Positions 6,175 through 61,878 of a stretch of 64,000 bases of DNA are shown piece by piece (within the stretch, counting starts at the first letter, position 1; each line of letters starts with the position of its first letter). The notes beneath the pieces were generated by a model. It was not told where the DNA came from. It saw only the letters and a list, made by a program, of their open reading frames with translations, and did no database searches. The stretch is from an uncultured Opitutia bacterium (GTDB lineage Bacteria; Verrucomicrobiota; Verrucomicrobiia; Opitutales; Opitutaceae). The DNA lies in contig CAIKHO010000027.1 in the NCBI GenBank assembly GCA_903827245.1, positions 1 to 64,000 on the forward strand, in the 5' to 3' direction. The position numbers and the translations under genes are program-made.

Positions 6175-6220
6175 GGGAGGGCTGCGCCTTCATGGCACTA
6201 CCGACGTTCCGTTGATTTTG

Positions 6221-6332
6221 GCCGGAACGATGGAATTGAGCCGTAGCGATCAATGTAGCAGCCGAGGTAACGAGGCTGGGTTTGGTGATTAACCCCAAAC
6301 CAGCCTCCTCACGTCGGCTACTACTCGCGCGT
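6221..6332. repeat. Family-E palindromic repeat, copy 1
   Basis: The inverse arms TAGCAGCCGAGGTAACGAGG (6256-6275) and CCTCCTCACGTCGGCTACTA flank a TTTGG/CCAAA core. The leader GCCGGAACGATGGAATTGAG is shared with copies near 41.0 and 57.4 kb. It lies between converging genes (the NtrC-type gene and the lipoprotein), so the RNA hairpin could also end transcription from both sides. Confidence 0.8.
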
Positions 6333-12921: not shown

Positions 12922-13048
12922 CCCGGTAGGGCGCGGATTCCGCTCCGCGCCGGGCATGACGCCAGAGTTGCTACGCAGCCAGAGGCTTCGGCTTATCTTG
13001 CCCCGGGTGATATTCCCTGCGCGGACAGAGTCCACGCCCTACCGGTTG
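12922..13048. repeat. Family-B palindromic repeat, copy 1
   Basis: The left arm begins CCCGGTAGGGCGCGGATTCC (12922-12941). It has a small inner hairpin (GCGCGGA/TCCGCGC) and an inverse right arm ending GTCCACGCCCTACCGG near 13046. A second copy sits at 14558-14669, in the next inter-gene gap. It fills most of the 197-base gap between the ACP and the first flavoprotein. Confidence 0.8.
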
Positions 13049-13111: not shown

Positions 13112-14557
13112 ATGAATTCCGCCTCGCACTACGACGTCGCCATCATCGGGGCCGGCATGTCCGGCCTCGCGGCGGGAATCCGGCTGGCGCACTTCGGACG
13201 CCGGGTCTGCATCTTTGAACGGCATAACACCGTCGGCGGGTTGAACAGCTTCTACAGCATTGCCGGGCGCAAGTTCGACGTCGGCCTGCACGCGATGACC
13301 AACTACGTGCGCCCCGGCGTGAAGGGCACGCCGCTCGGCAAGCTGCTGCGCCAGTTGCGCATCGAGCGTGACGAGTTCGCGCTGTGCGAGCAGAAACAGT
13401 CGCGCGTGACCTTCGGGGCGCGTGGGGAGGTCTCGCTGCGCTTCACCAACGATTTCGCCGTGCTTGAGGCCGAGGTGGCGCGGTGTTTTCCCGCACAGAT
13501 CGACGGCTTTCGCCGGCTGGTCGGCCGCATCAAGGCGTTTGATGATGTCTCACTGGACGCCCGGCCTGTCTCGGCCCGTGAAATCGTCCGGGAGTGCATT
13601 ACCGATCCGCTCCTCGAGGACATGCTCTTCTGCCCCCTGATGTATTACGGCAGCGCCACGGAGCACGACATGGAATTCGGCCAGTTCGTGATCATGTTCA
13701 AGGCGCTCTTCCTCGAAGGCTTCGCGCGGCCCTTTGACGGCGTGCGCGTGATCGTGCGGGTGCTGCTCGAAAAGTACCGGCAAGCGGGAGGAGAACGGCG
13801 CATGAAGTGCGGCGTGCAGCGGATCATCCCGCGCGAAGGCCGGGCCCAGGCGCTGATCCTCGACACCGGCGAGGAAATCACGGCGGACCACGTGATATCG
13901 TCGATCGGCGCGCCGGAAACCGAAAAGCTGCTAGACGGTGGCCGCCGACCTCCGGGCGGCGGCCACCCGGAGGCGAAAAACGTTGGACGCCTTTCATTCA
14001 TCGAAACCATAGCCATTCTCAACCGCCAGCCGGCGGAGCTCGGGTGGGGGAGCGACACCATCGTATTTTTCAATGATTCCTTGCGCTTCGACTATGCCCG
14101 GCCGCAGGCCCAGGTCGACCCCCGCAGCGGGGTGATCTGCATCCCAAATAATTTCGATTACGGTGTGGGCCGGGCCCTGCCCGAGGGTATTTTCCGGGTC
14201 ACCTGCCTCGCAGACTATGACCGCTGGGCGCATTTGCCCGAGGAGGCCTACCAAGCGGACAAGAATCGCTGGTTCACCGAGGTGCAGCGCAGTGCCCGGC
14301 GTTTCCTGCCGGCCGTCGATGACCTGGCCCTGGCCGCGGCAACCGTGACCACCGACATGTTCACGCCGCGTACGATCACGAAGTTTACCGGCCATCTTAA
14401 CGGCGCTATCTACGGCTCGCCGGTGAAGAATCGTCAGGGCCGCACCGCGCTGGCCAATCTCTACCTCTGCGGCACCGACCAGGGGTTTCTCGGGATTGTC
14501 GGCGCCATGCTGAGCGGCATCTCGATGGCGAACTATCATATCCTACAGAAGGGTTGA
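13112..14557 (+). CDS. Phytoene-desaturase-like FAD oxidoreductase 1 (lipid cluster)
   Basis: A 481-residue flavoprotein of the CrtI/carotenoid isomerase/retinol saturase superfamily. The dinucleotide-binding motif is GAGMSGLAAG (11-20), followed by FERHNTVGG. The C-terminal FAD motif is in NLYLCGTDQGFLGIVGAM. Relatives add or remove double bonds in polyenes. Here the partners are a ketosynthase and an ACP, so an acyl-chain desaturase or isomerase role is inferred. Residues 276-286 (GGRRPPGGGHP) are encoded by a palindromic repeat that also occurs in intergenic DNA, apparently an in-frame insertion in a loop. Confidence 0.85.
   Translation: MNSASHYDVAIIGAGMSGLAAGIRLAHFGRRVCIFERHNTVGGLNSFYSIAGRKFDVGLHAMTNYVRPGVKGTPLGKLLRQLRIERDEFALCEQKQSRVTFGARGEVSLRFTNDFAVLEAEVARCFPAQIDGFRRLVGRIKAFDDVSLDARPVSAREIVRECITDPLLEDMLFCPLMYYGSATEHDMEFGQFVIMFKALFLEGFARPFDGVRVIVRVLLEKYRQAGGERRMKCGVQRIIPREGRAQALILDTGEEITADHVISSIGAPETEKLLDGGRRPPGGGHPEAKNVGRLSFIETIAILNRQPAELGWGSDTIVFFNDSLRFDYARPQAQVDPRSGVICIPNNFDYGVGRALPEGIFRVTCLADYDRWAHLPEEAYQADKNRWFTEVQRSARRFLPAVDDLALAAATVTTDMFTPRTITKFTGHLNGAIYGSPVKNRQGRTALANLYLCGTDQGFLGIVGAMLSGISMANYHILQKG
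13937..13968. repeat. Family-A palindromic repeat inside a coding region
   Basis: GGTGGCCGCCG and CGGCGGCCACC form perfect 11-base inverse arms around ACCTCCGGG. The same core occurs at 17552 and 45154 outside genes. Here it is read in frame by the flavoprotein gene without a stop codon. Confidence 0.85.
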
Positions 14558-14669
14558 CCCGGTAGGGCGCGGACTCCGCTCCGCGCCGGGAACCACAAAC
14601 GAGGCGTGCCGTAGCCCCCCACGACCGGATGTGTTTTGTCCGGCGCGGAGCGGAATCCGCGCCCTACCG
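14558..14669. repeat. Family-B palindromic repeat, copy 2
   Basis: The left arm (14558-14590) begins CCCGGTAGGGCGCGGACTCC. The right arm (14640-14669) ends GGAATCCGCGCCCTACCG and is its near-exact inverse. It begins on the base after the flavoprotein stop codon, so the mRNA hairpin could protect or end the upstream transcript segment. Confidence 0.85.
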
Positions 14670-17551: not shown

Positions 17552-17639
17552 GGTGGCCGCCGACCTCCGGGCGGCGGAGGTTTGCGTCGATGTGGGCTTG
17601 GGCGACATCCCCACCGGCGCTCGGAGATCGGCGGCCACC
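17552..17639. repeat. Family-A palindromic repeat, intergenic copy with long loop
   Basis: The left arm GGTGGCCGCCGACCTCCGGG (17552-17571) and a right arm ending GATCGGCGGCCACC (to 17638) are inverse copies separated by about 50 bases. The repeat lies between the FabI-like and OleA-like genes. The open frame of the latter continues upstream through it, but the start is placed after it. Confidence 0.82.
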
Positions 17640-18755: not shown

Positions 18756-18826
18756 CGTAGGGGCGTTCCTTGCGGACGCCCGGTTTGCGATCGTGAAGTT
18801 GGGCGTCCGCGAGGAACGCCCCTACG
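18756..18826. repeat. Inverted repeat with 26-base arms between oleA-like and oleB-like genes
   Basis: The arms at 18756-18781 (starting CGTAGGGGCGTTCC) and 18801-18826 (ending GGAACGCCCCTACG) are inverse with one mismatch, with a 19-base loop. It fills most of the 135-base gap before the hydrolase gene, and a strong RNA hairpin is expected. Confidence 0.85.
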
Positions 18827-19756: not shown

Positions 19757-19829
19757 TGTAGGAGCGGCTTTATGCCGCGATGATTGAGCGGACAGACGAG
19801 TCATCACGGCATAAAGCCGCTCCTACAGA
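19757..19829. repeat. Family-D palindromic repeat, long copy
   Basis: The arms TGTAGGAGCGGCTTTATGCC (from 19757) and GGCATAAAGCCGCTCCTACA (to 19828) are inverse, with an imperfect middle. A short hairpin of the same family occurs at 61812. It lies between the converging hydrolase and formylglycine-enzyme genes and may serve as a bidirectional terminator. Confidence 0.85.
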
Positions 19830-39587: not shown

Positions 39588-40946
39588 ATGAAGTTAACTG
39601 ACCTGAACCGCGACGGCGGCATTGGTGCCAACTCGCTGTTCCTCCAGCTTGGCGACGTCAACATCCTGATCGACTGCGGCCTCAACCCGAAAAAGGTGGG
39701 CCGCGCGGCGACCCCCGATCTCGGCCTGCTGCGGGACAAGAGGCTCGATCTCATCATCGTCACGCATTGCCATCTGGACCACATTGGCAGTCTGCCCGTG
39801 GTGATGCGCGAGCATCCGGACGCGCCGGTGATCATGACGACGTCCAGCCGCATGCTGGTCGAGCGCATGCTCCACAACTCCGCCAACGTGATGATGCGCC
39901 AGCGCGAGGAGGAGGATATTCCTGATTATCCGCTTTTTACCCACGATGAAATCGACCGCTGCGGCAAACGGCTGACCGGGCTGCCCTTCGGCCACGCCAA
40001 GAAATTCCGTGGCCACAAGGACGAGGTCGAGGTGATCTTCCACCCCGCCGGGCATGTGGCCGGGGCCGCGGCCGTCGAGCTCCGCCACAAGCACCGCGCA
40101 ATCTTCATCACGGGAGACGTGCTCTTCACGGACCAGCGGACCCTCCAGGGTGCGAAGTTTCCCGCCGGGCACTTTGACACACTCATCACCGAGACCACAC
40201 GCGGCAACACGGAGCGTCCCGCCGACAAGGGCCGGAGCGCGGAAATGACGCGCCTCGTCGCCAGCATCAACGACACGATCCAGCGCGGCGGCTCCTTCCT
40301 CATTCCCGTCTTTGCGCTGGGCCGCATGCAGGAGGTCCTGACAATCATTCACGACGCCCGGAAATTCGGCAAACTCGTCGAATGCCCGATCTTTGCCTCG
40401 GGGCTGGGCATGGACCTGGCCGACTACTTTGATGAAATCAGCCGGAAGACGCGCCACCTCCAGTTCAGCCGCAGCATCATCAAAGACCTCAAGATCAAGC
40501 CCACGCCCCGCAAGCTTAACCCCGGCGAGGACCCGCAGCAGAATGCGCTCTACATCATCAGCTCCGGCATGCTGGTCGAGCGCACGCCGAGCTACACCCT
40601 CGCGTCCGGGCTGCTCGGCCACGCGCGCAATACCATCGGCTTTGTCGGCTATTGCGATCCCGACACCCCCGGCGGCAAGCTGCTCGCGGCCAAGACGGGC
40701 GACACGTTTGTCTTCGAATCGGCGCACGTGAAGGCCAAGATCAAGGCCCGCGTCGAGCGCTTCGAGCTGAGTGGACACGCGGACCGCGAGGAATTGCTGG
40801 AATTCGCCGTGCAAACCGGTGCCCGCAGCATCGTCCTCACCCACGGCGACCCGCCCGCCCGCGCCTGGTTCACCGAGCAGCTCGCCGAGCTCGCGCCCCA
40901 GAGCAAGGTATTGGATCCGGTGCCGCTGAAAACCTATCTGGTCTAA
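39588..40946 (+). CDS. Metallo-beta-lactamase/beta-CASP ribonuclease-like protein
   Basis: A 452-residue MBL-fold protein with the beta-CASP insert. The zinc motif is THCHLDH (59-65), followed by GHVAGAAAVEL and ITGDV. Beta-CASP features are TETTRGN, VFALGRMQEVL, IISSGMLVE and the final SGHADREEL plus THGD. Relatives are RNA exo/endonucleases (RNase J/CPSF-like). RNA is the likely substrate. Confidence 0.9.
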   Translation: MKLTDLNRDGGIGANSLFLQLGDVNILIDCGLNPKKVGRAATPDLGLLRDKRLDLIIVTHCHLDHIGSLPVVMREHPDAPVIMTTSSRMLVERMLHNSANVMMRQREEEDIPDYPLFTHDEIDRCGKRLTGLPFGHAKKFRGHKDEVEVIFHPAGHVAGAAAVELRHKHRAIFITGDVLFTDQRTLQGAKFPAGHFDTLITETTRGNTERPADKGRSAEMTRLVASINDTIQRGGSFLIPVFALGRMQEVLTIIHDARKFGKLVECPIFASGLGMDLADYFDEISRKTRHLQFSRSIIKDLKIKPTPRKLNPGEDPQQNALYIISSGMLVERTPSYTLASGLLGHARNTIGFVGYCDPDTPGGKLLAAKTGDTFVFESAHVKAKIKARVERFELSGHADREELLEFAVQTGARSIVLTHGDPPARAWFTEQLAELAPQSKVLDPVPLKTYLV

Positions 40947-40955
40947 ACCGGGACT

Positions 40956-41070
40956 ATGTAGTTGGACCGCAGCGATCGATGTAGCCGCCGAGATAACGTG
41001 GCTGAGTTTGAGCCACGCATCCCAGTCCAGCCTCGTTATCTCAGCTGCCACGTTCAACTGCATCGTTTCA
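40956..41070. repeat. Family-E palindromic repeat, copy 2
   Basis: ATGTAGTTGGACCGCAGCGA begins the left arm. CGTTCAACTGCATCG ends the right arm. Inner arms GCCGAGATAACG and CGTTATCTCAGC are inverse copies. The left part matches the copies at 6.2 and 57.4 kb. It occupies nearly half of the 255 bases before the next gene. Confidence 0.8.
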
Positions 41071-45016: not shown

Positions 45017-45311
45017 GCCGGCGCGCAGTCGGGCGGTGCCGGCCGGCCGGGGTAAAGTCGCGGCCGCCATCAATTGCAGATGCCCCCGGAGTAATACCAA
45101 CGTCCGCCAGGTTTTATACTTTAGCCTACTGACCAATGCATCCGAGTGGGCACGGGTGGCCGCCGACCTCCGGGTGGCGGATTCCTAGTGGGACAATCGA
45201 CTGGGCGGCCGCCGGCGGGTTCTCGGGATCCACCCAATAAACTTGGCGGGCGACGGGCTAAGCCAGTAGCGCAAAACGCCGGAGAGACGTTTCAGCGGCG
45301 GCCGGATGAAT
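45017..45311. other. Intergenic region carrying a family-A repeat
   Basis: These 295 bases carry no convincing gene. The only recognisable feature is a family-A repeat at 45154-45181. Imperfect inverse sequence (GGGCGGCCGCCGGCGGG near 45204) could form a hairpin with it. Confidence 0.55.
45154..45181. repeat. Family-A palindromic repeat, copy 3
   Basis: GGGTGGCCGCCGACCTCCGG followed by GTGGCGGA matches the core at 13937 and 17552, with one change in the inner arm. Confidence 0.75.
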
Positions 45312-57390: not shown

Positions 57391-57535
57391 CGGCTCAGCC
57401 GGAATGATGCAGTTGAACCGCAGCAATCAGTGTAGCAGCCGAGATAACGAGGCAGAGTTTGGTGACTCACTTCAAGCCAGCCTCCTCACGTCGGCTGCTA
57501 CAGGCGACAGCATCGTTCCGGCTCAGGCAAACTCG
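57391..57535. repeat. Family-E palindromic repeat, copy 3
   Basis: CAGCCGGAATGATGC and GCATCGTTCCGGCTC are the outer inverse arms. Inside, TAGCAGCCGAGATAACGAGG and CCTCCTCACGTCGGCTGCTA are inverse copies. Matches the 6.2 and 41.0 kb copies. It lies between converging genes at 56330 and 57576. Confidence 0.85.
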
Positions 57536-61711: not shown

Positions 61712-61811
61712 CGGTGGAGGAGCCGCGCGAGCCGGCTGGACCGACCATGTTGCCGCTGCGTTACGCGGACTGCAACTGGAAGCTTCTTTTGGCGGCGTAT
61801 CAGTTTGAAAA

Positions 61812-61840
61812 TGTAGGAGCGGCTTTATGCCGCTCCTGCA
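61812..61840. repeat. Family-D palindromic repeat, short hairpin
   Basis: GGAGCGGC and GCCGCTCC flank TTTAT, with flanking TGTA and TGCA. It shares its first 20 bases with the left arm at 19757. It lies in the 167-base gap before the S4 gene on the other strand. Confidence 0.8.
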
Positions 61841-61878
61841 ATTGAACCGCACCCTTTCTCTGTTCCGCCGCCGCGGGA

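Follow-up and report, generated by a model that had tools for sequence, protein, structure and literature searches.

A REPIN-Like Palindrome in Frame in an Opitutaceae Oxidoreductase and the Probable Recurrent Capture of Repeats by Its Disordered Loop

A 64,000-nucleotide stretch of DNA from an uncultured Opitutia bacterium of the Opitutaceae (contig CAIKHO010000027.1, positions 1 to 64,000; herein referred to as the window) contains a perfect hairpin inside the reading frame of an enzyme gene, and the core of this hairpin recurs between genes. How did a palindrome of this kind come to be read as protein, and did it lengthen the enzyme in doing so? An earlier note on this DNA likened the hairpin to the Rickettsia palindromic elements (RPE), of which one element type, 105–146 bp long, is described in 19 reading frames (PMC2229807; PMC3733652) and fused in frame in Rickettsia, where one such enzyme is active with changed affinity (PMC2229807).

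The oxidoreductase gene and its hairpin

The hairpin lies in an intact gene (table 1) whose product matches Pfam Amino_oxidase at 1.4e-16 and has 4rep as its closest solved fold (Z 29.9, rmsd 3.6, 437 aligned). The protein does not reach the NCBIfam cut-off for any named enzyme and is, as judged from Pfam and predicted fold, a CrtI-like FAD oxidoreductase; its gene neighbours are FabF-, FabZ-, FabI- and KAS III-like genes and a second CrtI-like gene. Other repeats also populate the window: a second palindromic family, CCCGGTAGGGCGCGGAYTCCGCTCCGCGCCGGG, flanks the oxidoreductase gene, its two copies on the 3′ side forming an inverted pair; GTAG-type palindromes whose arms contain GTAGGGGCG and TGTAGGAGCGGC lie between or near genes; and a three-copy repeat of 68–109 nt, 76–83% alike among copies, has imperfect inverted repeats in its 3′ part.

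Table 1. Coding features and repeats located in the window
Feature	Position	Strand	Remarks
CrtI-like FAD-dependent oxidoreductase gene, 481 aa, intact	13112..14557	+	ORF, Pfam, fold
Length-variable protein loop, 23 aa	13919..13987	+	between anchors ..APET and LSF..
Family-A hairpin, 31 nt	13937..13967	+	residues 276–286, in frame, CrtI-like oxidoreductase gene
Family-A inverted pair, intergenic	17552..17639	+	17552–17577 and 17614–17639
Further family-A copy	45155..45180	+	one mismatch, no coding frame supported
Second palindromic family	12922–12954, 14558–14590, 14640–14669		flanks oxidoreductase gene
GTAG-type palindromes	18756–18826, 19757–19827, 61809–61843		between or near genes
Three-copy repeat	6217–6329, 40943–41010, 57394–57506		imperfect inverted repeats

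The arms of the hairpin, GGTGGCCGCCG and CGGCGGCCACC, are exact reverse complements with 9 nt between them, giving an 11-bp perfect stem that a repeat search of the window extends to 14 nt at 93% complementarity. The element starts exactly at codon 276 and reads GGRRPPGGGH(P), and the frame of 481 aa passes through it uninterrupted, as the earlier note had described for a perfect hairpin within a flavoprotein frame; the length of 32 bases given there has to be corrected to 31 nt (10.3 codons), base 13968 falling outside. The RNA of positions 13925–13985 is predicted to fold at −33.7 kcal/mol (z −3.35), and an Rfam search gave only two tRNAs and no known RNA at the element.

Family A in the host genome

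The hairpin belongs to a dispersed repeat, herein referred to as family A. Its 26-nt core, which starts with GGTGG and ends with CCACC, occurs in the 3.55-Mb draft assembly of the host (G000) in 62 copies at no more than three mismatches, 43 of them exact, against 0 copies for a reversed-sequence control and about 2e-7 exact copies per genome expected from composition alone; the core of the window hairpin is identical to this repeat at 26/26 positions. Two further sites had been proposed in the window, and the intergenic core copy at 17552 is confirmed, between the FabI-like and KAS III-like genes, whereas the copy placed at 45154 is present but starts one base later and carries one mismatch.

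Many copies of family A are single and others form inverted pairs, and 18 distinct closed inverted units of 31–145 nt were found at the places of the 62 copies. These units have terminal inverted repeats, as MITEs do, whereas target-site duplication was found in 0 of the 18 when the ends were taken as GGTGG..CCACC (shuffled mean 0.165). REPINs and RAYTs (PMC3116915) offer a further comparison: family A resembles REPIN/REP sequences in being a high-copy short palindrome, mostly outside genes and partly in inverted doublets, and it differs in that a search for the Y1 (RAYT-type) transposase PF01797 gave 0 matches in the host draft (97.38% complete), with control genomes positive. Family A is therefore termed REPIN-like here and is not classed as a REPIN. 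The 31-nt form seen in the oxidoreductase gene recurs elsewhere in the genome (C65:17347) between flanks common to longer units, which fits a deletion between two CGGCGG repeats; the short form would probably be what remained after a longer two-armed unit had lost its central part in this way.

Family A matched in only five of the 57 genomes searched, its own included, and the remaining 52 gave no match. There are 85 matches in G001, which belongs to the same genus, two in G002, one in G003 and, to a variant form, 15 in G021 (with one control match there), and exact 20-mer matches in other phyla come to one or two per genome among the matches listed. A widespread ancestral element was considered and rejected on this distribution.

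A search of the host genome for other in-frame copies, which the earlier note had proposed, relied on Pfam and an approximate codon model and found support for none of the other 61. The codon model flagged two of the 62 copies, the window hairpin and the copy at 17614, and the latter we take to be a spurious extension, since its frame runs upstream of the KAS III-like gene, the model match of which covers residues 4–347 counted from 17655. A looser rule (at least 60 open codons on each side) admitted 10 of the 62, and the nine other copies are crossed by ten such frames, of which a single one matched Pfam, to AMP-binding at 173–550, with the element at 86–95 and hence outside it. On these sequence criteria a single family-A copy of the 62 is supported as coding inside a protein, so capture appears to be rare in the host genome.

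The loop across the Opitutaceae

In a structure model of the oxidoreductase built from 56 sequences (mean pLDDT 90.0; an earlier model at 64.5 was superseded), residues 278–287 are the sole internal segment below 50, placed after the helix 267–274 and before the strand 295–303. The surface loop anticipated at residues 276–286 is thus borne out as a low-confidence segment with predicted disorder, whereas its surface exposure we infer.

The oxidoreductase gene is found in 131 of 140 Opitutaceae genomes, and the window gene with 126 orthologues provided 127 loops for comparison. This set leaves out G104, G148 and G158 (partial or split genes), G079 (35% identity) and order-level relatives, and includes nineteen loops that a first pattern missed and that were added via alignment with slightly different anchors. 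Within a protein that is otherwise conserved, no part varies more than the loop, whose length ranges from 13 to 59 aa (median 19). Ten orthologues that have no significant palindrome or tandem repeat in the loop (G009, G026, G032, G036, G064, G076, G086, G102, G124 and G153) also have loops of 23 aa, so that the earlier claim that the element adds about 11 residues is not established, nor is a net insertion in the window loop; the family-A element may have displaced sequence that the loop contained before. The loop of G001 measures 22 aa and that of G002, which holds another repeat, 35 aa. The family-A core, even its 11-nt arm, occurs in the window loop only, and the loop of G001 is without it although that genome has 85 copies. 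Ancestry, named at the outset as what would speak against a coding insertion, consequently applies to the loop, which is old and equally long in unrelated genera, but not to the palindrome, which is present in 1 of the 127 loops.

Other loops hold other repeats. Compared with same-length segments of their own genes, 31 of the 127 loops are more palindromic or tandem at p ≤ 0.01, where about 2.5 are expected, some of the 31 being short, weak repeats. Under strict thresholds, a strong palindrome or tandem repeat is present in 19 of the 127, and about a dozen kinds are represented; these 19 loops, in 8,937 nt, compare with 22 hits in 172,953 nt elsewhere in the genes (12 genes), a comparison in which loops count once per gene and matches elsewhere singly, under thresholds chosen after inspection of the loops. 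The 19 repeat loops have a median length of 35 aa, against 18 aa for the others, and 106 of the 127 loops are without a labelled repeat.

In 12 genomes the loop lies within three mismatches of a pattern that occurs 5–110 times in the same genome; matches overlap in tandem arrays, so that arrays are fewer than matches. Besides G000 with family A, these are G018 with a GGCATGGGCATCTTGCCCATG palindrome (27 genome matches), G003 and G025 with AATCCAA heptamers (61 and 85), G067, G119, G072, G100, G122 and G071 with GAATGCG heptamers (103, 54, 99, 110, 55 and 66), several of which carry an inverted arm, and G091 and G075 with a TGTAGG..CCTRCA palindrome (32 and 5). Backward controls gave 0 for the family-A, GGCATGGGCATCTTGCCCATG, GAATGCG and TGTAGG patterns and, for AATCCAA, 0 in G003 and 2 in G025. 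The loop of G004 has inverted AATCGAA arms, four mismatches from the AATCCAA-type pattern that was counted, so the 105 genome matches of that pattern represent a related type only. Further repeat kinds are found in the loops of G002, G031 (a CGTCACT heptamer), G062, G074, G116 and G137, and weaker GAATGCG-like stretches in those of G121 and G157 (3 and 12 genome matches).

Heptanucleotide short tandem repeats are seven-base units that occur in many dispersed arrays. Several of the loops hold units of this type, with the difference that here they also lie inside a protein loop, often as inverted array pairs. Arrays of the AATCCAA and GAATGCG types are abundant and genome-specific in G001, G003, G004, G025, G067, G072 and G100; G001 has 173 AATCCAA-type genome matches and no such repeat in its loop. 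The G106 loop (L213) contains CGGGCGGGTTCGAATCCCGTCCTGCCCG, which by eye resembles the T arm and 3′ end of a tRNA, and a search of the G106 genome for other copies of it returned its own copy alone.

The content of the loop also changes between close relatives. G004 and G072 are identical at 456 of 460 residues outside the loop (99.1%), with 98.2% identity over the flanking 800 bases, and the cassettes in their loops (44 and 53 aa) show no relation to each other; G136 and G062 share 440 of 455 residues, the former with no repeat and the latter with a CAACTCT repeat. On a FastTree tree built without the loop, presence or absence of a repeat requires at least 14 changes, gains and losses pooled, 11 of them forced by starred branches, the labels having been set by hand after seeing the loops (the 19 strict-threshold loops plus G075 and G157). 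Labels shuffled on the same tree require 19.8 changes on average, and the repeat trait is hence also partly inherited.

Explanations and known relatives

We consider it probable that the loop, disordered as it is predicted to be, has recurrently and largely neutrally captured repeats abundant in the host, and that the window hairpin is one REPIN-like copy among these captures. Under this hypothesis, a copy of the dispersed family-A palindrome would have come to lie in frame in the disordered loop, and across the family the same loop would many times have taken up short repeats abundant in the genome around it, presumably by insertion rather than by replacement of older loop sequence. Such repeats would survive in the loop because it has no conserved structure and because the observed inserts contain no stop codon and do not shift the frame; on the coded strand, all frames of the 31-nt element and of the seven heptamers examined are free of stops. 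The captured repeats are presumably neutral. What speaks against this reading is that the window loop does not exceed in length the ten loops that lack a significant repeat, that neither a target-site duplication (0 of 18 units) nor a Y1 transposase was found, and that just one family-A copy in 62 has support as coding sequence.

A more active role for the DNA is conceivable, namely that the loop is a docking or recombination hot spot that attracts repeats and swaps cassettes beyond what protein tolerance would explain, and the wholly different cassettes of the 99.1%-identical G004 and G072 agree with this, as do TGYAGG-type palindromes that begin at the same loop nucleotide (10) in L150 (G075), L171 (G091) and L188 (G116). 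These three genomes represent genera far apart on the tree, and the shared nucleotide hints at a preferred entry point. However, other inserts differ in where their boundaries lie, and survivors could gather in one loop through tolerance alone; we consider the hot spot unlikely. That an in-gene docking site exists, at which dispersed repeats were repeatedly inserted and swapped in frame, we regard as doubtful; if true, the loop would be a running record of the genome's repeat families and a route from repeat DNA to protein.

It is quite improbable that the repeats are useful and not merely tolerated, with the loop selected to diversify or the hairpin acting in the mRNA: the strong RNA hairpin and a loop that varies most in an otherwise conserved protein speak for such a role, but most loops are without a repeat or a strong stem, and the repeat kinds differ in sequence and structure. 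That the palindrome arose from ordinary loop codons, through chance or by descent, might be suggested by the age and equal length of the loop elsewhere, but is barely credible given full identity to a 62-copy repeat and absence from 126 other loops, and chance itself is refuted by copy number (62 against 0 in the control).

Recurrent capture by a tolerant loop, which remains our preferred reading, resembles several described systems in part. The likeness to RPE drawn at the outset holds for the way of working, both being dispersed palindromes that lie in frame in a conserved protein gene and leave it intact (PMC2229807), but not for membership: the element here is 31 nt (closed units 31–145 nt) and not 105–146 bp, with one supported coding copy in the host genome, and one protein loop has received many different repeats across a bacterial family. 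GTAG-tagged REPs are reported as enriched in Opitutus terrae (PMC3733652), a member of the same bacterial phylum, and the G075 and G091 loops contain repeats whose ends read TGTAGG; family A, in contrast, carries no GTAG tag. Nematomorph mitochondria are described as having numerous perfect inverted repeats, up to 284 bp, within protein-coding genes (PMC6649704), as here; they differ in being mitochondrial and, as that source presents them, in not concerning one recurrent loop supplied by dispersed bacterial repeats. A literature search by title and beginning of abstract returned no account of one enzyme loop independently taken by many unrelated repeats, which is weak evidence of absence, and none on Opitutaceae with REP sequences.

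In the known case, one in-frame palindrome is found in many proteins; here, many different elements are found in one protein loop across a bacterial family. The loop appears to be a tolerant site at which repeat DNA is turned into protein, and the loops of the Opitutaceae offer natural replicates of the step from intergenic repeat to coding sequence, which could help to tell protein tolerance from DNA target preference.
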